A stretch of DNA of 13,953 nt from an uncultured Hyphomicrobiales bacterium (GTDB lineage: Bacteria; Pseudomonadota; Alphaproteobacteria; Rhizobiales; Beijerinckiaceae): positions 1-13,953 of the forward strand of contig CAIWVR010000464.1 in the NCBI GenBank assembly GCA_903916165.1, written 5' to 3'. Position 1 is the first letter of the stretch, and each line of letters begins with the position of its first letter. Shown here piece after piece: positions 1,561 to 13,360 of the stretch. Made by a program: the position numbers and the translations under genes. The notes under the pieces are model-generated. The model was not told the DNA's origin, did not search any database, and worked only from the letters and a program-made list of their open reading frames with translations.

Positions 1561-2418
1561 TCAGCCTTTCGGGTCCCCCTCGGGGGCGAGAAGAACCGCG
1601 CTCGACGCCTCGTCGGCCGCTGTCAGCGCCTGATGGCGGCGCATGGCGAGCGGCATCAGGCCGAGATAGGCCAGTGTGAGGCCAACCAGTACTTCCATCG
1701 GGAAGGTCGCCAGCAGGAGCACAAAAGCCGCCACGGCAAACAGAACAGCGATGAACCAGTCGCGTGGCACGCGCCCCACCTGCTTGCCCGAGTAATGGGG
1801 AATGCGGCTCACCATCAGGAAGGCGATGGCGATCACATAGGCAATCTCGAGATAGGTGAAGAACCGCCCGTCAGGCAGGCCGACGACCGAATATTTCAGG
1901 TAGATCGGCAGCATGGCGCAGATCGCGCCGGCCGGTGCCGGCATGCCGACGAAAAATTGCGCCTGCCAGGCCGGCTTGTTGGGATCGTCGATCATGACGT
2001 TGAACCGCGCCAGACGCAGCGCGGCGGCGATGGCGAAAATCATCGCGGCGAACCAGCCAAGGCTCGGCGCCTCGTGCAGGCTCCAGAAATAGAGCAGAAA
2101 GGCCGGTGCCACGCCGAAATCCACGAAATCGGCCAGCGAGTCGAGTTCTGCGCCGAAGCGCGAGGCACCATCGAGCGCGCGGGCGAGGCGCCCGTCGAGC
2201 CCGTCGAGCACGGCGGCGCAGACGATGAACACGGCCGCCATCTCGAACTTCGCTTCCGCCGCGAAGCGGATCGAGGTCAGGCCGAGGCAAAGCGCCAGCA
2301 GCGTGACGAGATTGGGCAGGACGATGCGCATCGGAATGCGCGAAAAACGCCGCTTGCGGCGTTCATTCTGGGGAGCGCTCCCGTTGCCCATCCCCGTCCC
2401 TTCCTGCTCGAGTGCCAT
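1561..2418 (-). CDS. pssA: CDP-diacylglycerol--serine O-phosphatidyltransferase
   Basis: This integral inner-membrane enzyme transfers the phosphatidyl group of CDP-diacylglycerol to L-serine, giving phosphatidylserine for the adjacent decarboxylase. The 285-aa protein contains the complete CDP-alcohol phosphotransferase signature D75-G76-x2-A79-R80-x8-G89-x3-D93-x3-D97. These acidic residues bind the metal and CDP. Several hydrophobic helices follow, for example around 31-50, 60-72 and 101-115. The first ATG overlaps the psd stop by one base (TGATG), which implies translational coupling, and AAGG lies seven bases upstream. A second ATG at 2391 with AGGAAGG before it is a possible alternative start that would remove nine residues. 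The length is that of the Bacillus-type, membrane-embedded enzyme. Confidence 0.95.
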   Translation of the reverse strand: MALEQEGTGMGNGSAPQNERRKRRFSRIPMRIVLPNLVTLLALCLGLTSIRFAAEAKFEMAAVFIVCAAVLDGLDGRLARALDGASRFGAELDSLADFVDFGVAPAFLLYFWSLHEAPSLGWFAAMIFAIAAALRLARFNVMIDDPNKPAWQAQFFVGMPAPAGAICAMLPIYLKYSVVGLPDGRFFTYLEIAYVIAIAFLMVSRIPHYSGKQVGRVPRDWFIAVLFAVAAFVLLLATFPMEVLVGLTLAYLGLMPLAMRRHQALTAADEASSAVLLAPEGDPKG

Positions 2419-3116
2419 CAGCCGACCTTGAAGCTGCGGCGCGACTCTGCCGTGGAAAGGTCGGCCAGAACCGTCTCCCCTGCGACCGCCCTCGAGCCAA
2501 GGCCAACCAATGGCACGGCATTGTCGGGCATGTAGACGTCGACGCGCGAGCCAAAGCGGATGAGACCAAAGCGCTCGCCAGTCCCGATCGAATCGCCCTC
2601 GCGGGAGAAGGAGACGATGCGGCGCGCGATGAGACCGGCAATCTGGACGACGCCAAAATGGCCGGTCGTTGTTTCGATGATCACCGAATTGCGCTCATTG
2701 TCTTCGCTCGCCTTGTCGAGATCGGCATTGAGGAACAGGCCGGGCTTGTAGGCGATGCGGGTGATGCGTCCGGTCACTGGCGCGCGATTCACGTGGCAAT
2801 CGAACACCGACATGAACACCGAGATCCGCGACAGCGGCTTGTCGCCCAGTCCCAGTTCCGGCGGCGGCGTGAAATAGCCAATGGACGACACGATGCCGTC
2901 GGCGGGCGAGACGATCAGACCCTCGCGCAGGGGCGTGACGCGCGGCGGATCGCGGAAGAAATAGGCGCACCAGACCGTGAGGATGAAACCGATCCAGCCC
3001 AACGGCGACCAGATCCAGCCGAGGATCAGCGCGATGACGGCGAAGATAGCGATGAATTTATAGCCCTCCGGGTGGATCGGAACGATCTGGCGGCGGACGG
3101 AATCGATCATGGACAT
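2418..3116 (-). CDS. psd: phosphatidylserine decarboxylase proenzyme
   Basis: The enzyme decarboxylates phosphatidylserine to phosphatidylethanolamine at the inner membrane. The 232-aa protein is of the short type. An N-terminal hydrophobic stretch (about residues 20-53) is followed by the decarboxylase fold with [14 protein letters not shown]. Near the C-terminus it carries [11 protein letters not shown]. In that motif the Gly-Ser bond (Ser at about residue 190) is the expected autocleavage site that makes the pyruvoyl cofactor. The ATG at 3116 begins [18 protein letters not shown], the start I expect for this family. The open frame continues back to a GTG at 3173, but no ribosome binding site precedes that codon. 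The last base of the stop codon overlaps the pssA start. Confidence 0.94.
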
Positions 3117-3303
3117 GGGATGGCTGAGGCTCCGTTCAGACTGCCTTTTCGCAAATTGCCGACAGGAAGTCACGCGTCGGGTGTATAAGTCACGTTTTGA
3201 ACCCGATCATCCAATGTCCGGAGCCGTCGGCAGACGAATATTTTGGCCCGATGGGCGTTACCCTTCGCATTTTCCCGGACAGACGTCCGACAAAGGCTGC
3301 CTC
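3117..3303. promoter_or_regulatory. divergent intergenic region, psd / metallopeptidase
   Basis: This 187-base gap separates the minus-strand psd from the plus-strand metallopeptidase and must hold both promoters. The sequence TGTATAAG (3182-3189) could act as a -10 element in either direction (TTATAC on minus, TATAAG on plus). No -35 box lies at a convincing distance, so I do not assign a promoter. Two small hairpins precede the plus-strand gene: GCCC-GAT-GGGC (3246-3256) and CGGAC-AGAC-GTCCG (3276-3289). The second lies just ahead of AAAGG, the likely ribosome binding site for the ATG at 3304. Confidence 0.3.
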
Positions 3304-4362
3304 ATGAAGCTCTTCGAGTGCCAGATTTGCGCACAACCACTGTTCTTCGAAAACGAAGCCTGCGAAAAATGCGGCCACCGGCTTGGTTTTGCACCTGCCC
3401 AGGGACGCCTTGTTGCGCTCGCTCCGGCGGGCGAGGGCGCTTTCGTGCCGGCAGACCGGGCCGCCATCTGGTCGACGCCGGGCGATCCGCGGCCCGTGCG
3501 GTTTTGCGTCAACGCCGCGCAGGGCGTCTGCAACTGGCTGATCGAGGAAGGCGACCAGGGCACGCATGATGCCTATTGCGCGTCGTGCCGACACAACCGG
3601 ACGATCCCCGACCTGTCCGATGCATCGCAGAAAGCCCTCTGGCGCAAGATCGAAAATGCCAAGCATCGCCTGACCTACACATTGCTCGCGCTGCGGCTGC
3701 CCACTGACGGCGTGGTCTTCGATATTCTGGCCGATGCGCCGGGCACAGGGCCGGTCATAACAGGCCATGACAATGGCCTCATCACGCTCAATCTCGCCGA
3801 AGCCGACGATGGCGAGCGCGAGAAGCGGCGCACCAGCATGGGCGAGACCTATCGCACCCTGCTCGGCCATGTGCGCCATGAGGTCGGCCATTATTACTGG
3901 GACAGGCTGGTGCGCGATGGCGGCAAGCTCGATGAATACCGCGCCCTGTTTGGCGACGAGCGTGACGATTATGCGGCTGCGCTGCAGCGCTATTATGCCA
4001 ACGGGCCGGTGCCGGACTGGCGCCAGAGATATGTGAGCGCCTACGCCAGCACGCATCCGTGGGAGGATTTTGCTGAGACCTTCGCGCATTACCTGCACAT
4101 CGTCGACACGCTTGAAACCGCGCATGCGTTCGGCATCCAGGTGCGGCCGCGTATTCGCGACAACCAGGATCTCTCGACCCAGATCGACTTCGATCCGCAT
4201 CGCATGCGCGACATCGCGCCGCTGATCGACGCCTGGCTGCCCATCTGCTTTGCGGTCAACGCGCTGAACCGCAGCATGGGTCAGCCCGACCTCTACCCCT
4301 TCATCCTGTCGCCCGGAGCCATTTTGAAACTGGGGTTCATGGCCCGGCTCATGCGCGATTGA
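3304..4362 (+). CDS. zinc-ribbon plus HExxH metallopeptidase (Peptidase_Mx family)
   Basis: The predicted zinc-dependent peptidase has 352 aa. An N-terminal zinc ribbon is formed by C6-x2-C9 and C20-x2-C23. A second cysteine group (C68, C76, C92, C95) lies within the first 100 residues. The catalytic region has H192-E-V-G-H196, followed by HPWEDFAETFAHYL (251-264), where the glutamates at 254 and 258 are candidates for the third ligand. I recognise this architecture as the 'putative zinc-binding metallopeptidase' family; its substrate is unknown. There is no signal peptide or membrane helix, so it is probably cytosolic. The start at 3304 follows AAAGG and begins directly with the ribbon; an upstream in-frame extension overlaps the psd start and is rejected. 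It lies 186 bases ahead of the amidoligase operon on the same strand, suggesting a shared role. Confidence 0.85.
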   Translation: MKLFECQICAQPLFFENEACEKCGHRLGFAPAQGRLVALAPAGEGAFVPADRAAIWSTPGDPRPVRFCVNAAQGVCNWLIEEGDQGTHDAYCASCRHNRTIPDLSDASQKALWRKIENAKHRLTYTLLALRLPTDGVVFDILADAPGTGPVITGHDNGLITLNLAEADDGEREKRRTSMGETYRTLLGHVRHEVGHYYWDRLVRDGGKLDEYRALFGDERDDYAAALQRYYANGPVPDWRQRYVSAYASTHPWEDFAETFAHYLHIVDTLETAHAFGIQVRPRIRDNQDLSTQIDFDPHRMRDIAPLIDAWLPICFAVNALNRSMGQPDLYPFILSPGAILKLGFMARLMRD

Positions 4363-4548: not shown

Positions 4549-7500
4549 TTGTCGATCCGCGTCGCCCTTCATCACGTCACGAGCTACACCTACGACCATC
4601 CGGTCGCGCTCGGGCCACAGGTCATCCGACTGCGCCCCGCCCCGCATTGCCGGACGAAGGTGCTGTCCTATTCGCTGAAGGTGACCCCCGCCGATCATTT
4701 CGTGAACTGGCAGCAGGACCCGCATGGCAATTGGCTGTCGCGGCATGTGTTTCCGGAGAAGGCAACGCAGTTCAAGATCGAGGTCGATCTGACGGCGGAA
4801 ATGTCCGTCATCAATCCGTTCGACTTTTTCATGGAAAAACATGCGCAGGACTATCCCTTCGCCTACACGCCCGAAGAGACAGTCGAACTCGCGCCCTATC
4901 TCGTCAGCGAACCGCAGGGCCCGAAATTTGCGGCCTATCTGGCGGATATTCCGCGCGAGACGATGCGCACGGTCGACTTCCTCGTCAGCCTCAACACGCG
5001 GCTCAGCAACGGGATCAAATATGTCATCCGCATGGAGCCTGGCGTTCAGGATCCGGAAGAGACGCTGGAGCTGGGCTCCGGCTCATGTCGCGATTCCGCC
5101 TGGCTGCTGGTGCATCTGGCGCGGCAACTGGGCCTCGCCGCGCGCTTTGTGTCCGGCTACCTCATCCAGCTGAAAGCCGATGTGGATGCCGTCGACGGGC
5201 CGAAGGGCACGCAGCACGATTTCACCGATCTCCACGCCTGGGCCGAGATCTACATTCCCGGCGCGGGCTGGATCGGTCTCGACGCCACCTCTGGCCTGCT
5301 GTGCGGCGAAGGGCATCTGCCGCTGGCCGCCACGCCGCACTACCGCTCGGCGGCGCCTGTGTCGGGGATGGTCGAGCCCGCGACCTGCACGTTCGATTTC
5401 TCGATGCGGATCGACCGCATCCGCGAGGCACCGCGCGTCACCCAGCCCTTCTCCGACGACGCCTGGGACCGGCTCAATGCGCTCGGCATCAAGGTTGACG
5501 AAGATCTTGCAGAACAGGATGTGCGCCTGACGATGGGCGGCGAGCCGACCTTCGTCTCGATCGACGATTTCGAAGCCGCAGAATGGAACACCGCCGCTGT
5601 CGGTCCCACCAAGCGGGTGTTCGCCGACACGCTGATCCGGCGCCTGCGCGAGCGCTTCGCACCCGGCGGTTTCCTGCATTACGGACAGGGCAAATGGTAC
5701 CCGGGCGAGAGCCTGCCGCGCTGGTCCTTCGCGCTCTACTGGCGCAAGGATGGCAAGACGATCTGGAGCAACCCCGACCTGATCGCCGACGAGAGCGGCA
5801 AGGGCAAATACGAGGGCCGGAAAGCGCTCATCGCCGACGCGCAGAAACTCGCGCAGGAGATCGCGACGCGCCTCGGCCTGCCGCTGGATTGCGCGCTGCC
5901 AGCCTATGAGGATCCGGCGCACTGGCTGATCAAGGAATCCGATCTTCCGGTCAACGTCGATCCGAGCAATTCGAAACTCGACAATGCCGAGGAGCGCGCC
6001 CGCATCATGCGCGTCTTCGAACGTGGCCTGACCAAGCCGACCGGCTATGTCCTTCCGATGCAGCGCTGGAACACGGACGGCTCGAAGGCACCACGCTGGA
6101 AAAGCGAGCGCTGGGAGACGCGGCGCGGCAAGATCTTCCTGTTGCCCGGCGATTCACCCATCGGCTTCCGCCTGCCGCTGAGCTCCCTGCCGCACATCCC
6201 GCCGGACTCCTATCCCTACATCACGCCGCAGGACCCAACTGAAATTCGCGGCCCCCTGCCCGATCCCGAAGAGATCCTGCACAGCTATGGCGCGACCACC
6301 AGTCCGGCGCTGGCGCAACAGACGGCGGAAGCGGCCATCGCCGGCCCCGTGCGCACGGCGCTCGCCATCGAGCCGCGCGACGGCATCCTGTGCGCCTTCA
6401 TGCCGCCTGTCGAGCGCATGGAGGATTATCTCGAACTGCTCGCCGTGATCGAACTGGCGGCGGAGGCCGCCGATTGTCCGGTGCACATCGAAGGCTATTC
6501 GCCGCCGCAGGATCCGCGCATCGACGTCATCAAGGTGACGCCGGACCCCGGCGTCATCGAGGTCAATGTGCATCCCGTCGCGAGTTGGCGCGAGGCGGTC
6601 GAGAATACTGTCGCGCTCTATGAAGAAGCGCGGCAAACACGGCTGGGCACAGACAAATATCTCACCGACGGACGCCACACCGGCACGGGCGGTGGCAATC
6701 ATGTCGTGCTGGGCGGCGCGACGCCGATGGACTCGCCCTTCCTGCGCCGGCCCGACCTGCTGAAAAGTCTCGTGCTCTACTGGCAGCGGCATCCGGCGCT
6801 GTCCTATATTTTCTCTGGGCTCTTCATTGGACCCACGAGCCAGGCACCGCGCATAGACGAAGGCCGCCACGACGGCCTCTACGAGCTGGAAATCGCGATG
6901 GGGCTTGTGCCGCATCCCGAGAAGGGGGGGGCACCGCCGCTTTGGGTCATCGACCGCATCTTCCGCAACATGCTGGTGGATGTCACGGGCAACACGCATC
7001 GCGCGGAAATCTGCATCGATAAATTATTCTCGCCCGATGGCCCGACAGGTCGCCTCGGCCTCGTCGAATTCCGCTCCTTCGAAATGCCGCCCGATGCGCG
7101 CATGTCGCTCGCCCAGCAATTGCTGCTGCGTGCAATCATCGCTTGGTTCTGGCGCGAGCCGCAGCAAGGCGAATTCGTGCGCTGGGGCACCGCGCTGCAT
7201 GACAAGTTCATGCTGCCCCATTACGTCTGGGAGGATTTCAACGGCGTGCTCGGCGACTTGAAGGGCGCCGGCTATGACTTCGATCCGCTGTGGTTTGAGG
7301 CACAGCGCGAGTTCCGCTTCCCGCTCTATGGCGACGTCGAACATGGCGGTGTGGCGCTGACATTCCGCCAGGCGCTCGAGCCATGGCATGTGCTGGGCGA
7401 AGAAGGCACGCCCGGTGGCACCGTGCGTTTCGTGGATTCGTCGGTCGAACGCATTGAGGTTCTGGCCACGGGTTTCGTGCACGGCCGCCATGTCATCACC

Positions 7501-7863
7501 TGCAACGGCCGCGCAATGCCAATGACCTCGACGGGACGCTCCGGCGCGGCGGTGGCAGGCGTGCGCTTCAAGGCGTGGCAACCCGCGTCCGGCATTCACC
7601 CGACCATGCCGATCCATGCGCCGCTCACCTTCGATATTGTCGACACGTGGAACAACCGCTCGCTGGGCGGATGCATCTACCATGTGACGCATCCGGGGGG
7701 GCGCAGTTATGATACTTTCCCTGTGAATTCTTACGAAGCACAAGCCAGACGCCTCGCGCGTTTTCAAAATCACGGTCATACTCCCGGACTCATGCACATA
7801 GGTCGCGAGATCCCGTCGCCAGAGTTTCCGCTGACGCTCGATCTGAGGAGGACGTTTGGCTAG
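4549..7863 (+). CDS. transglutaminase-like / DUF2126 putative amidoligase fusion
   Basis: This 1104-aa two-part protein begins with a bacterial transglutaminase N-terminal domain (about 4-85). Next is a transglutaminase core with a visible triad: C180 in [11 protein letters not shown]229 in DLHAWAE and D245 in WIGLDATSG. From about 315 to the end it matches the DUF2126 family, predicted to be a glutamine-synthetase-like amidoligase. Markers are [15 protein letters not shown] (325-339), EVNVHP (671-676), GGGNH (714-718) and VEFRSFE (839-845). Prediction from the family: one half forms amide bonds and the other cleaves or transfers them; no substrate is known. The start is TTG, because a stop (TGA at 4534) lies 15 bases upstream and no ATG or GTG intervenes. 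The 3' end overlaps the next gene by 8 bases. An 8-G run at 6924-6931 leaves the frame intact. It is probably cytosolic. Confidence 0.9.
7845..7851 (+). promoter_or_regulatory. strong Shine-Dalgarno fixing the TTG start of the ATP-grasp gene
   Basis: GAGGAGG lies within the end of the upstream gene, four bases before the TTG at 7856-7858. It is the best ribosome binding site in the window. It makes the TTG start credible although the next possible initiator is well inside the protein. Confidence 0.75.
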
Positions 7864-10387
7864 CGAAGTACCCGGCACGCGAAATGCCGCTCGACGAGGC
7901 GGCGGGTCGGCGCGTCGTGTCGAAAGCTGGACCTCAGCCTATCAACGCCTGCCCGGCATTGACGATGAATTTCTCGACAAGAATGGTGCGCCAAAGCCGC
8001 ATTGGCGCACCTTCCTGAACGCCCTGTCGCGCATTGACGACGAGCAGATCGAGCGGCGCTTTGCCTCCGCAGACCGGCACATCCGCGATCTGGGCGTGTC
8101 CTATCGCGTCTATGGCGAGACGAATGAACGCTCCTGGCCGCTGAGCCACGTGCCCCTGCTGATCCCCGAGAGAGACTGGCGCGAGATCGTGGCTGGCATC
8201 ACACAACGCGCCGAACTCATGGAGCGCGTGCTCACCGACCTGTACGGAGACGCCAAGCTCGTCAGCGAAGGCGCCCTGCCCGCCGCCGTCGTCACCGGCA
8301 GCGCCGATTACATGCGGCCCATGCGCGGTGTGAAGCCACCGGGCGGTAAATGGCTGCGCCTTTATGCCGCCGACATCGGCCGTGGCCCCGACGGTCGCTG
8401 GTGGGTGCTCGGCGATCGCGCGCAGGCGCCATCGGGCTCGGGCTATGCGCTCGAAAACCGTCTCGTGCTCTCGCGCGCCTTCCCGACACTCTACCGCGAC
8501 ATGAACGTGCAGCGCCTCGCGCCGTTCTTTCGCGAATTCCGCAACGGGCTGACACAAGCCGCATCGCGCAGCGATCCGCGCATCTGCCTGCTGACGCCCG
8601 GTCCCTTCAGCCAGACCTATTTTGAACAAGCCTATCTGGCGCGCTATCTCGGCATTCTGCTCGTCGAGGGCGACGACCTCACCATGCGCGATGGCGAGGT
8701 GCATGTGCGCACCATCGCCGGGCTGAAGCGCGCCGACGTGATCTGGCGGCGCGTCGATGCCGACTGGAGCGATCCGCTGGAAGCCAATGCCGCCTCGCGG
8801 CTCGGTGTGCCCGGCCTCATGCAGGCAATCCGCAACGGCACCGTGACGGTCGCCAACATGCCTGGCAGCGGGCTCATTGAATCGCGCGCGCTGCTCGGTT
8901 TCATGCCGGCCCTGTGCCGCCGCCTGCTGGGTGAAGACTTGTCGATGCCCAATATCGCGACCTGGTGGTGCGGACAGGAATCCGAGCGCAAGCAGGTGCT
9001 GTTGCGTCTCGATGATCTCGTCATTGCGGGTGCCTTCTCCGATTCCATGCCAGGCGCCAGCGATCCGCGCAGCGTCATCGGCGCCGATCTCGACAAGGCC
9101 GGGCGTGCAAGGCTCGAGGAGAAGATTGAGCGACGCGCTGTCGATTATGTTGGCCAGGAAGTGGTGCAATTGTCGACCACACCCGTTTGGGCCAATGGCA
9201 AGCTGACACCTCGCCCTTTCGTGCTGCGCGTCTATGCGGCGGCAACCGACAAAGGCTGGGAGATCATGCACGGCGGTTTCTGCCGCGTGTCCGATCGCAC
9301 CGACGCGCGCGCCGTGTCGATGGGCGACGGCGTGCTCTCGGCGGACGCCTGGGTGCTGGCGGACAAGCCTGTCGAAATGACCACATTGCTGCCCACCGGC
9401 GACAGCGTGAAAATTCGTCGCCTGCTGGGAAATCTGCCGAGCCGAGCCGCGGACAATCTGTTCTGGCTCGGCCGTTACATGGAGCGGGCGGAGGCGACGC
9501 TGCGCCTGATCCGCTGCTATTGCAGCCGCGTCATGGACCCCGATTCGATGACGGGCGGCGGGCGTCAGTCGACGGCGCGTCTCGCCCGCATCCTCATCGC
9601 CTGGGGTGCTGTTTCCCCGGAAATGACCGACAGCACGAGCGCCGAAATGGCGGCTGCCGCCTTGCATGAAAAGAAACAGGTCGGCTCGGCGGTCGCGCTC
9701 GCCATTTCGGCACGGCGTGCGGCTGGCGTCATCCGCGAGCGCCTGTCGCCTGACGCCTGGCAATTATTGAACGCCCTCGAGGCGCAGCTGTCCGCCAGCA
9801 AAGTGGCTGCGCTGCCGGAGACGGAAGCCTTCGACCATGCCGACGCCGCGCTGCGATTCATTGCGGCGCTGTCGGGGCTGTTCCAGGAAAACACCAACCG
9901 CGTCGCGGGCTGGCGGTTTCTCGACATGGGCCGCCGTGTCGAACGGGCGATCAACACCTGCCGTTTCGCGCGCACCTTTGCCGACAAGGACGCGACAGCG
10001 GAAAATCTCGACGTGCTGCTCGACCTCATCGACTCGCAGATCACCTTTCGGTCGCGCTATCTCATCGGCGTCGCGCTGGCGCCGGTGCGCGATATGGTCC
10101 TGCTCGACACGTTCAATCCGCGCTCGGTGGCATTCCAGGCGGACCGCATCGACGAGCACCTTGCGACGCTGCCGTTGCTGAGCGAGGACGGCATCATGGA
10201 GGCCCCGCGGCGCATTGCGACGAAACTGGTGTCCGATCTTTCTGTTGATGAGGCCGAGCAAATCGACCCCAGCAAGATCCTTGGTTTCGAGCAGCGCCTG
10301 ATGTCGCTGGCGGAGGCCATCGCGCAACGCTACTTCCTGCAGGGACCCGGCACCGCACGACAGGGCCGCGAAATGGATCTGGCATGA
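7856..10387 (+). CDS. circularly permuted ATP-grasp / alpha-E fusion protein
   Basis: This 843-aa protein joins two usually neighbouring families. Residues of about 60-490 are a circularly permuted ATP-grasp domain, recognised from [13 protein letters not shown] (96-108), [20 protein letters not shown] (172-191), [12 protein letters not shown] (191-202) and [11 protein letters not shown] (364-374). ATP-grasp enzymes activate a carboxylate as acyl-phosphate and ligate it to an amine. From about 527 ([20 protein letters not shown]) the chain is an all-helical alpha-E domain, a family of unknown function that accompanies this ligase. Elsewhere, as I recall, the two are often separate genes. The TTG start at 7856 is supported by GAGGAGG four bases upstream and overlaps the previous gene by 8 bases; the stop overlaps the next start as ATGA. 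Strict translational coupling implies the three proteins act together. The acceptor and donor are unknown. Confidence 0.9.
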
Positions 10388-11304
10388 TCTACGACATCCG
10401 CCACGTCACGACCTATCGCTACGACGCGCCGGTGACCTCGGCCCGCTGCACGCTGCGGCTGCTGCCCTCGGACGACGAGGGCCAGCGCGTCTTCGACAGC
10501 GGGCTCGAAGTCTCGCCCGCGCCCGCCACGATCAGCGAGCGCACCGACTTTTTTGGCATGCGCGTCACCAATGTGACGATTGAGGCGACGCATCGCGAGT
10601 TGCGCATTACTGCGCTGTCGCGCGTCGAGGTCGAGCGCCACGAGACGCCGGCACCCGCGCTCACGCCACCCTGGGAGGATGTGCGTCAGGCCGCCTTTTC
10701 GTCGAGCCAGCTCGGGCAAAATGCACCCGCCCATTTCCTGTTTCCGAGCCGCCTCGTGCCGCTGCATCCGCCGGCGACGCAATATGCCGCTGAAAGTTTC
10801 GTCGCCGGTCGCCCGGTGGTCGAGGCTGCCGCCGAACTGATGACGCGCATCCGCGACGATTTCAAATATGACCCTAAGGCGACCGCCGTCTCGACGCCGC
10901 TATCGGATGCCTTCGACAAGCGCGGCGGGGTCTGCCAGGATTTCGCGCATATCATGATCGCGGGCCTGCGCGGGCTTGGTCTGCCGGCCGCTTATGTCAG
11001 CGGCTACATCCGCACCCTTCCACCGCCGGGCAAGCCGCGCCTCGTCGGTGCCGACGCCTCGCATGCATGGGTGTCGCTGTGGTGCGGCGATATTTTCGGC
11101 TGGCTTGATTTCGATCCCACCAATGCGGTGCTTGCGGGCAACGACCATATCGTCATCGCACGCGGCCGCGATTATGCGGACGTGTCGCCAATCGACGGCG
11201 TGATCCTGGCATCAGGCAATCAGATATTGAGCGTCAGTGTCGACGTGGCACCAAGCCAGCGCCACGCCAGCGATCCGCAGCCTCGGGCGCGGGCGTTGGT
11301 GTAG
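10384..11304 (+). CDS. transglutaminase-like cysteine peptidase family protein
   Basis: The 306-aa protein starts with the bacterial transglutaminase N-terminal beta domain (IRHVTTYRYDAPV, residues 5-17) and continues into a transglutaminase core. The catalytic triad is complete: C184 in GGVCQDFAH, H227 in DASHAWVS and D244 in WLDFDPTN. Proteins of this fold usually act as peptidases or amidases through a papain-like thiol. There is no signal peptide, so a cytosolic target is likely. The ATG overlaps the upstream stop (ATGA), making this the last gene of the amidoligase operon. It is shorter than, and clearly different from, the transglutaminase half of the first gene, so the operon encodes two distinct triads. 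Substrate is unknown. Confidence 0.9.
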   Translation: MIYDIRHVTTYRYDAPVTSARCTLRLLPSDDEGQRVFDSGLEVSPAPATISERTDFFGMRVTNVTIEATHRELRITALSRVEVERHETPAPALTPPWEDVRQAAFSSSQLGQNAPAHFLFPSRLVPLHPPATQYAAESFVAGRPVVEAAAELMTRIRDDFKYDPKATAVSTPLSDAFDKRGGVCQDFAHIMIAGLRGLGLPAAYVSGYIRTLPPPGKPRLVGADASHAWVSLWCGDIFGWLDFDPTNAVLAGNDHIVIARGRDYADVSPIDGVILASGNQILSVSVDVAPSQRHASDPQPRARALV

Positions 11305-11308
11305 CACC

Positions 11309-11434
11309 CCGTCATTGCGAGCGGAGCGAAGCAATCCAGAAGCCACTTGTGAGTCCTATGTGGATTGTCGCTGGCGTCTCGCACGCATGTTAAAGACTCG
11401 CGACTGGATTGCTTCGCTCCGCTCGCAATGACGG
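11309..11434. repeat. 126-bp palindromic repetitive element (31-bp perfect inverted arms)
   Basis: The arms at 11309-11339 and 11404-11434 are perfect reverse complements over 31 bases. The outer end begins CCGTCATTGCGAGCGGAGCG. The 64-base centre carries a smaller GAGTC/GACTC dyad (11351-11355 and 11395-11399). I recognise this arm sequence as a dispersed palindromic repeat in many alphaproteobacterial genomes; no transposase gene lies inside. It begins 5 bases after the transglutaminase stop and ends 10 bases before the ABC exporter stop. It fills the gap between two convergent genes and would form a long RNA hairpin in either transcript. A role as bidirectional terminator or mRNA stabiliser is inference. 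Confidence 0.88.
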
Positions 11435-11443
11435 CGCAACACC

Positions 11444-13360
11444 CTAGGCCTCGATCTCCACATGCCTGCTCCTGCCTTCTTCCTCGGCGGCGCGGCGGAG
11501 CGCTTCCTGCGCGGCATCGACCTCGCGCTGGCGGTTCCACATGGCCTGATAGACGCCGCCCAGCGCCAGCAGCTCTTCATGCCGCCCGCGCTCGACGATC
11601 TCGCCCTTGTCGAGCACGAGGATTTCATCGGCGTTGACGATGGTCGACAGGCGGTGGGCGATGACCAGCGTCGTGCGACCCTGGCTGACACGGTCGAGCG
11701 CCGTCTGGATCTCGCGTTCGGTGAAACTGTCGAGCGCCGAGGTCGCCTCGTCCAGGATCAGGATCGAGGGATTCTTCAGGATCGTGCGCGCAATGGCCAC
11801 GCGCTGCTTTTCGCCGCCGGACAATTTCAGGCCGCGCTCGCCAACCTGCGCCTTGTAGCCATTAGGCACCGAGCGGATGAAATCATCGATCTGCGCGGCG
11901 CGCGCGGCCTCATAGACCTCGTCATCGGTCGCATCCCAGCGACCGTAGCGGATGTTGTAGGCGATGGTGTCGTTGAACAGCACCGTGTCCTGCGGGACCA
12001 TGCCAATGGCGTCGCGCAGCGAGATCTGCGTGATGTTGGCAATGTCCTGCCCGTCAATGGTGATCCGCCCGCTCTGCGGTTCATAGAAACGAAACAGCAG
12101 GCGCGACAGCGTCGACTTGCCGGCACCTGACGGGCCGACGATGGCGAGCGTCTGGCCAGCTGGCACCTCGAAGCTGACGCCTTTCAGGATGGCGCGCTTT
12201 GGATCATAGGCGAAATGCACATCCTCGAATTTCACCGCCGCACGATCAACCTGCAGCGCCTGCGCGTCAGGCTTGTCCTTGATCTCGGGATTCTGGTTCA
12301 GGATGGCGAACATCATTTCGATGTCGATCACGGCCTGCTTGATCTCGCGATAGACCATGCCCATGAAATTCAACGGCTGGTAGAGCTGGATCATCATGGC
12401 ATTGATCAGCACGAAATCGCCGAGCGTATTGGTGCCCTTGTGGATGCCGTCGATGCACAGGATCATCACCACCATCAGACCGATCGAGAAGATCAGCCCC
12501 TGCCCCGAGTTCAGCACCGCCAGCGAGACATAGCTTGCCGTGCTGTTGCGCTCGTAGCGTTCCATCGAGAGATCGTAACGCTCGGCTTCGCGCCGCTCCG
12601 CACCGAAATATTTCACCGTCTCGTAATTGAGCAGCGAATCGATCGCCTTGGTGTTGGCGTCAGTGTCGCTCTCGTTCATGTTGCGACGAATGCCGATCCG
12701 CCAGTCGGTCGCAATCGTCGTAAACTTCAGATAGGCGGCAATCATGATGATCACCGTCAGCGCATAGCGCCAGTCGAATTCGAAGAAAAAGACGCAGAGG
12801 ATCAGCGTAAATTCAACGATGGTAGGCGCGCCCGTCAGCATGGACATGCGCACGATCTGCTGGATCGCCTCGCGGCCACGTTCCAGCACGCGCGTCAACC
12901 CGCCGGTCTTGCGCTCGAGATGGAAGCGCAGCGACAGCTGGTGGAGATGAACGAAGACCTCGTTGGCGATGCGCCGCACGGCATTCATGGCGACAGCTGC
13001 AAAGAGCGCGTCGCGCGCCTGTGTGAAAAACTGCATGAAGATGCGCAGCAGCGTGTAGATGACCACCATCGCGACCGGCCCGGCCAGGATCGCGGGCAAG
13101 GGCACGTCGGCACTGCCATTGGTCAGCAAATCCGTCGCCCATTTGAACGAATAGGGCACGGCAATGGTGATGAACTTGGCGACCAGCAGCAAAGCCATGG
13201 CACCAAGCACGCGCGCCTTCAGGTCGGCACGGTCTGAGGGCCAGATATAGGGCCAGAGGTGCTTGACAGTGGTCGCCAGCGAAGCTTCGGCCCGGATGTC
13301 GGGTCTGGTTGCCTGGTTGTCGGCGGGCGGAGTCTGGATCGGTTTATGGTGAGGGTTCAT
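11444..13360 (-). CDS. Atm1/HMT1-type ABC exporter (fused permease-ATPase)
   Basis: This 638-aa half-transporter should work as a homodimer in the inner membrane. About six transmembrane helices lie between residues 50 and 345. The nucleotide-binding domain has Walker A GPSGAGKST (409-417), Q-loop Q457, signature LSGGEKQR (513-520), Walker B ILILDEAT with E538 (533-540) and H-loop H569. NYETVKYFGAE (245-255) and LNSGQ (283-287) are hallmarks of the Atm1/ABCB7 group. In the Novosphingobium homologue the matching Asn and Gln line the glutathione site, so export of glutathione conjugates, including metal conjugates, is the likely role. The ATG at 13358-13360 has GGAAG five bases upstream. The gene converges on the amidoligase operon across the palindromic element. 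Confidence 0.93.
   Translation of the reverse strand: MNPHHKPIQTPPADNQATRPDIRAEASLATTVKHLWPYIWPSDRADLKARVLGAMALLLVAKFITIAVPYSFKWATDLLTNGSADVPLPAILAGPVAMVVIYTLLRIFMQFFTQARDALFAAVAMNAVRRIANEVFVHLHQLSLRFHLERKTGGLTRVLERGREAIQQIVRMSMLTGAPTIVEFTLILCVFFFEFDWRYALTVIIMIAAYLKFTTIATDWRIGIRRNMNESDTDANTKAIDSLLNYETVKYFGAERREAERYDLSMERYERNSTASYVSLAVLNSGQGLIFSIGLMVVMILCIDGIHKGTNTLGDFVLINAMMIQLYQPLNFMGMVYREIKQAVIDIEMMFAILNQNPEIKDKPDAQALQVDRAAVKFEDVHFAYDPKRAILKGVSFEVPAGQTLAIVGPSGAGKSTLSRLLFRFYEPQSGRITIDGQDIANITQISLRDAIGMVPQDTVLFNDTIAYNIRYGRWDATDDEVYEAARAAQIDDFIRSVPNGYKAQVGERGLKLSGGEKQRVAIARTILKNPSILILDEATSALDSFTEREIQTALDRVSQGRTTLVIAHRLSTIVNADEILVLDKGEIVERGRHEELLALGGVYQAMWNRQREVDAAQEALRRAAEEEGRSRHVEIEA

Follow-up and report, generated by a model that had tools for sequence, protein, structure and literature searches.

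The window analysed here, a 13,953-nucleotide contig (CAIWVR010000464.1, C464 of the 651 contigs of assembly GCA_903916165.1, which is 87% complete with 6% contamination) of an uncultured Hyphomicrobiales bacterium of the Beijerinckiaceae, carries an operon of three genes that encode a DUF2126 amidoligase-type protein fused to a transglutaminase-like (TG) domain (TG-DUF2126), a circularly permuted (CP) ATP-grasp protein fused to alpha-E, and a second TG protein. We suppose, with a probability of roughly 55%, that this operon is an accessory layer on an Anbu-type amide-ligase core: DUF2126 would act as a ligase, a live ATP-grasp would be supplied in trans, and the fused ATP-grasp-alpha-E would be non-catalytic. 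The operon is an ordinary member of the peptide-tagging system that Iyer, Abhiman, Burroughs and Aravind reportedly predicted in 2009, with a glutamine synthetase (GS)-like DUF2126 ligase, CP-ATP-grasp, alpha-E, TG and Anbu. No product has been assigned to it in the literature searched, as the first-pass annotation of the window had already held. Knowing which of the domains can be enzymes reshapes the approach to the system: DUF2126 and the stand-alone ATP-grasp become the ligase candidates, the fused protein a non-catalytic partner, and nitrogen limitation the setting; a study confined to the window operon would leave out the ATP-grasp in which the ATP residues are retained.

Organization and occurrence of the operon

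The three open reading frames (ORFs) occupy positions 4549-11304 of the plus strand and overlap by 8 and 4 bases, as the first-pass annotation had described, and profile searches, with all Pfam domain calls above the curated cut-offs, placed their products in the families named there:

4549..7863, + strand, TG-DUF2126, 1104 aa, TTG start (Pfam, residue invariance, triad, structure model, fold matches)
7856..10387, + strand, CP-ATP-grasp (predicted pseudo-ligase) fused to alpha-E, 843 aa, TTG start (Pfam, residue alignment)
10384..11304, + strand, second transglutaminase-like protein, 306 aa, ATG start, Cys-His-Asp triad intact (Pfam, triad, match to 3isr)

The domains are Bact_transglu_N (6-84), Transglut_core (141-246) and DUF2126 (277-1100, 1308 bits) in the first protein, CP_ATPgrasp_2 (PF14403; 100-479, 480 bits) and Alpha-E (527-827, 228 bits) in the second, and Bact_transglu_N (3-82) and Transglut_core (142-245) in the third. 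An AGGAGG motif precedes the TTG start of the fused gene, and the homologues listed for the operon proteins match them closely in length.

Protein searches at E <= 1e-3 returned at least 8000 proteins for TG-DUF2126, all of the 8000 scored, and, among 7999 scored, at least 7233 for the fused ATP-grasp-alpha-E. A genome scan found at least 593 loci; of the 80 best, 71 keep the order TG-DUF2126, ATP-grasp-alpha-E, TG on one strand, which bears out the earlier view of a recurring gene set: the operon is a family feature and not a chance arrangement. Three of the other nine loci end 0.5-2.2 kb past TG-DUF2126, and six (L149, L168, L182, L185, L202, L205) have no adjoining fused gene despite nearly 10 kb of sequence past it.

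In a phylum-wide sample of 200 genomes, the window's included, DUF2126 is present in 63, about a third, alpha-E in 112, Anbu in 69, Peptidase_Mx in 29 and Bact_transglu_N in 110. TG-DUF2126 loci were retrieved from 60 of the remaining 62 carriers of DUF2126 (all but G097 and G153), making 61 with the window; 40 further Anbu places were fetched as well, and 56 of the 69 Anbu places were covered. DUF2126 is fused to TG in all 61 loci. A fused ATP-grasp-alpha-E gene lies within 4 kb in 55 of them (on the same strand in 41, on the opposite strand in 14), and the full order DUF2126, fused gene, TG is found in 39. A stand-alone ATP-grasp is near TG-DUF2126 in 34 loci and Anbu in 15, 14 of the latter within 1 kb; these 15 loci represent six families, with six loci from one genus, and the Anbu and TG-DUF2126 genes overlap by 4 bases in seven loci. 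In L085, L090 and L091 (genomes G076, G036, G064) Anbu directly follows TG-DUF2126 and the locus has no fused ATP-grasp-alpha-E, an arrangement that may represent a pared-down version of the system.

Loss of presumed ATP/Mg-type residues in the fused ATP-grasp

To compare the fused and stand-alone ATP-grasps, 54 and 68 proteins, respectively, were aligned (122 of the 124 ORFs found; two short pieces were dropped). Eight positions, which by analogy with ATP-grasp enzymes we take to be of the ATP/Mg-binding type, were scored: two in LEDN (E, N), one in LVVK (K), three glycines in the GGYG loop, one in DLRPF (D) and one in NSSQGGG (N). Each of the 68 stand-alone proteins has the full set of eight. 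The fused proteins keep none (36 proteins), one (14) or two (4) of them, the survivors being K in 7 of 54 and the loop glycines in 4-5 of 54; the window protein has 0 of 8. The loss is not explained by misalignment, because anchor residues on either side remain in register (R of DLRPF and W in 54/54 each), with the loop region itself aligning loosely. The same range, 0-2 of 8, was found in all of 120 database homologues (the window's included) and in 72 fused proteins from the 80 closest loci. Two proteins of these loci were sorted as stand-alone, one with 8/8 and one with 0/8; the latter is probably a cut-off fused gene, its locus ending 0.6 kb past TG-DUF2126.

A FastTree tree separates the two kinds completely (support 1.0), and the solved structure 3n6x belongs to the stand-alone kind, matching it with 683 bits versus 252 for the window protein and with the motifs visible. 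The alpha-E domains of both kinds keep twin ER motifs, and the window's fused alpha-E retains R..ER and G...ER. A structural argument from the binding pocket of the fused protein was dropped: its model has a mean predicted local distance difference test (pLDDT) score of 59.7, and 3n6x is the only good match, at template modelling scores of 0.19/0.30. From its sequence, the fused ATP-grasp thus looks dead as a ligase. No published description of this residue loss was found in the literature searched, which excludes the 2009 paper.

The first-pass annotation had counted two ATP-dependent ligase-type domains in the operon. Both stand by profile, and DUF2126 models as a GS-like fold with many invariant polar residues; the fused ATP-grasp, however, is without the ATP/Mg-type residues. 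The loss of ATP-binding residues, which that annotation had named beforehand as grounds for giving up its proposal, is therefore seen in one of the two ligases, in the sequence and not in a structural model.

TG-DUF2126 is the credible ligase of the operon

The structure model of DUF2126 matches glutamine-synthetase-like folds, including GmaS (7cql) and the GS homologue 4hpp among many GS rows, and the listed GS alignment spans GS residues 100-449. Across 60 full-length sequences (the window's and those of the phylum sample; median identity to the window protein 56%) 216 of the 1104 residues are invariant, among them E332, E671, H718, E840 and R842 (60/60). The order of these five presumably resembles that of the GS motifs. 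A profile of TG-DUF2126 searched against PDB gave TG matches and noise and no GS, and GS-family matches within the window's own assembly were partial. The GS-like domain is said in the 2009 abstract to be circularly permuted.

The TG domain of this protein has the triad C180/H229/D245, and a Cys-His-Asp triad is intact in 149 of 150 TG domains, both window domains included; the second TG protein matches 3isr. By alignment and model, then, TG-DUF2126 combines a transglutaminase/cysteine-protease-like domain having an intact triad with a GS-like ligase fold. The general theme of ligase plus hydrolase proposed earlier holds, and DUF2126 is the one credible ligase predicted in the window operon.

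Partners encoded elsewhere in the genome

Another contig of the same assembly, C626, encodes an intact-type stand-alone ATP-grasp (485 aa), an alpha-E protein (333 aa) and Anbu, a proteasome-like Ntn-hydrolase, in a locus (L003, G000:C626, 8621-11897) that has no TG of its own. Beyond the window's two, no Bact_transglu_N domain was found in the assembly, and the sole Anbu match is that on C626, with none in the window. This Anbu has T1, D17 and K32; it is 56-68% identical to its counterparts in genomes of the same family and 64-65% identical to certain ones from the order, values that fit an origin in the same organism as the window.

In the phylum sample, stand-alone alpha-E was read from the result tables in 63 of 63 DUF2126 genomes, being scored as such where its frame is too short for a fused gene or, in G167, where it is separate from its ATP-grasp. 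For 48 of the 63 the stand-alone ATP-grasp was retrieved and put into the alignment, and it keeps all key residues in every protein so obtained. DUF2126 and Anbu occur together in 35 genomes, DUF2126 alone of the two in 28 and Anbu alone in 34 (Fisher p 5e-5, with no correction for kinship). Among 142 genomes sampled from the class, likewise counted by table reading and leaving out a weak 20%-identity match in G259, 20 of the 21 genomes with a fused-type match also have the stand-alone type, the exception being G288, which is 84% complete.

These data bear on the proposal that had been made from the window alone, namely a self-contained make-and-remove system whose single operon encodes a pair of active ATP-dependent ligases and a pair of cysteine hydrolases. 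We consider it unlikely. Both ligase families are indeed there by profile and the gene order is kept among the closest loci, but the fused protein has lost its key residues in the window and at least six of the eight in every fused homologue aligned, and DUF2126 is accompanied by stand-alone alpha-E and, where fetched, by an ATP-grasp of the intact type. The picture of a self-contained operon is incomplete, too. The three genes had been recognized correctly; the locus on C626 and a zinc-peptidase gene upstream (see below) had been overlooked.

Possible nitrogen control and sigma-54 sites

In the available part of PMC5491218, the DUF404/407, DUF403, TG and 'large TG' genes of Burkholderia cenocepacia (BCAM1233-1236) depend on NtrC and sigma-54, and we infer that the 'large TG' is TG-DUF2126. 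The available parts of two papers on Pseudomonas putida show PP_2686-2688 up about 11- to 15-fold in nitrogen limitation (first table column, PMC7801951), and the Anbu-like PP_2685 at 1.1 in that column but up in an earlier study (PMC7801951, PMC3325844). A 2025 survey of sigma-54 found COG3484 (proteasome-type protease) enriched in the alpha, beta and gamma classes; five other COG numbers looked for in its main text were not present there (PMC12316311).

We scored sigma-54 sites (maximum 16, thresholds 13 and 14). Sites of at least 14 lie in front of 23 of the 68 stand-alone ATP-grasp genes, in 14 of 41 genera. The corresponding counts are 8 in 528 for other genes, 28 in 2031 for random windows and 1 in 269 for inner genes of the system (alpha-E, TG, Anbu, fused), an enrichment with p 2e-17 before any correction for kinship; the Anbu operon of the window genome is among the high-scoring cases (14.5). 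The signal before TG-DUF2126 leaders is weaker, with 20 of 61 at 13 or more in the phylum set versus 46 of 528 controls. Among 78 of the 80 close loci, 10 leaders reach 13 versus 44 of 710 controls (p 0.054), and one reaches 14 versus 13 controls. Sigma-54 control of the window operon itself was considered and rejected: the strongest candidate site, 193 bp upstream, scores a weak 13.0 of 16, its close relatives are not clearly enriched, and the window as a whole has 29 sites versus 26.9 expected, which is no excess. A class-wide mark on the core operon was rejected too, since in 24 further genomes only two sites, both perfect, reached 14 (p 0.03) and three reached 13 (p 0.13). Predicted sigma-54 sites mark the leader gene of the core, the stand-alone ATP-grasp, in certain lineages only. 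RpoN turned up in all 24 relatives checked, chosen mostly for belonging to the window's family or for having such sites, but the incomplete assembly of the window yielded none.

The nitrogen link and the fold of DUF2126 could also be read as a sign of nitrogen-scavenging catabolism, in which DUF2126, like GS-fold ligases of the GmaS/PuuA type, would gamma-glutamylate amines or peptides and the nitrogen would be released by the TG/protease domains. Membership of the NtrC regulon beside urea and nitrate genes, an association with urea domains in marine metagenomes, and the presence of GmaS and 4hpp among the fold matches agree with such a role; GmaS, however, is one of many GS rows. In addition, no outside neighbour cluster was found in more than 14 sampled genomes, the one that reached this number being a mixture of histidine kinases and response regulators of differing architectures (7 of its 23 members scanned); a catabolic partner may still be among the other clusters, most of which are unannotated. 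We regard scavenging as a possible, though not a probable, explanation.

Upstream peptidase gene and other neighbours

Upstream of the operon, separated from TG-DUF2126 by 186 bp on the same strand, lies a possible fourth member:

3304..4362, + strand, Zn-ribbon (Zn_ribbon_DZR_6) and Peptidase_Mx, putative zinc metallopeptidase (Pfam)

Its ORF extends over 3109-4362; the likely start is 3304 (Met66), just before the domain begins. In 8 of the 61 loci Peptidase_Mx lies no more than 3 kb from TG-DUF2126 (2 on the same strand, 6 on the opposite one). Six of the 69 Anbu genomes (G031, G082, G094, G102, G186, G196) have no TG above the cut-off, and four of the six carry Mx, which adjoins the operon in only two, G102 and G186. 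In L134 (G186) Peptidase_Mx stands between alpha-E and Anbu and in L135 (G102) it adjoins Anbu, neither genome having an over-cut-off Bact_transglu_N. A replacement of TG by Mx is at most suggested by this pattern.

No convincing small carrier ORF recurs in the clusters (2040 small ORFs compared); the recurring groups, considered as a hidden carrier, look like antisense or frame artefacts and were rejected. A cluster of ABC-transporter genes was found near the operon in 10 genomes (median distance 3.7 kb) and an RND-like cluster in 6. Biosynthesis of an exported bioactive small peptide seems most unlikely on these grounds, with neither a widely recurring exporter nor a precursor and with an extent of residue invariance in TG-DUF2126 that means more constraint than we would expect of a secondary-metabolite enzyme; in its favour, one row of an antinematode activity table, in the available part of PMC7764037, lists the metagenomic clone jj117 with ATP-grasp, alpha-E, transglutaminase and protease genes.

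The flanks otherwise look ordinary, with tRNA-Phe and, downstream, an ABC transporter and a LysM protein (Pfam); other flanking ORFs, read unaided from their translations, we take to resemble Maf, PssA and Psd. AT skew is highest in the window (0.21) at 2001-3000, in the PssA/Psd-like region. The string DCFAPLAMT occurs in ORF translations at 11220-11637 of the window and at 325-822 of L001, which points to a dispersed repeat beside both loci.

Proposed function and comparison with known systems

In the accessory-layer reading that we prefer, DUF2126 would activate a carboxylate, most likely a glutamyl one, with ATP and join it to an amine, and the stand-alone ATP-grasp would carry out a second ligation in trans. 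The pseudo-ATP-grasp-alpha-E may serve as a non-catalytic partner, either holding the substrate or forming a pair with the live ATP-grasp and alpha-E, and the TG domains, together with Anbu and the Zn peptidase where present, would cut or transfer the product. The physiological setting is likely to be nitrogen shortage, because the core genes are linked to NtrC/sigma-54 in some carriers.

The system predicted in 2009, to judge from papers that cite it, has the same domain set as found here. The DUF2126-TG fusion, the CP-ATP-grasp profile and an Anbu in trans are all found; the ATP/Mg-type residues of the fused ATP-grasp are missing.

The remaining comparisons draw on the available parts of the papers cited. 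With the Anbu operon of Yersinia bercovieri and Pseudomonas (PMC6376114, PMC5666114) the window operon shares the ATP-grasp, alpha-E and TG families, but it lacks Anbu, adds DUF2126 and has a degenerate fused ATP-grasp, while the organism's own Anbu locus lacks TG; the stand-alone ATP-grasp of Y. bercovieri is reported to release phosphate from ATP (PMC6376114). BCAM1233-1236 of B. cenocepacia, which depends on NtrC and sigma-54, resembles it in the clustering of DUF404/407, DUF403, TG and 'large TG' genes (PMC5491218); the window operon differs in being preceded by just a weak promoter-like site.

Pupylation (PafA/Dop and the 20S proteasome, PMC8223512) has a GS-like ligase, a proteasome-fold peptidase and a role in nitrogen starvation in common with the present system. 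One might accordingly imagine a Pup-like nitrogen-recycling conjugation machine of Pseudomonadota, in which TG-DUF2126 and the live ATP-grasp would build and attach a non-ribosomal tag, the dead ATP-grasp-alpha-E would be a subunit that regulates or scaffolds the live enzyme, and, when nitrogen is short, the tag would be taken off or the tagged product broken down by TG, Anbu or the Zn peptidase. We find this doubtful. Among the small proteins of the clusters, none that recurs is convincingly Pup-like, though a carrier may be encoded elsewhere. To our knowledge, TG and alpha-E have no counterpart in pupylation. Set against the likeness is also that in vitro assays detected no peptidase activity of Anbu (PMC6376114).

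Finally, the rlo operon of P. aeruginosa (PMC12239564) likewise combines an ATP-grasp, a transglutaminase-like protein and a peptidase, and one of its enzymes is inactive, as appears to be the case here. The roles are exchanged, however: in rlo it is the TG that is inactive, beside a RimK-related ATP-grasp, whereas in the window operon the TGs are intact and the CP-ATP-grasp is degenerate.

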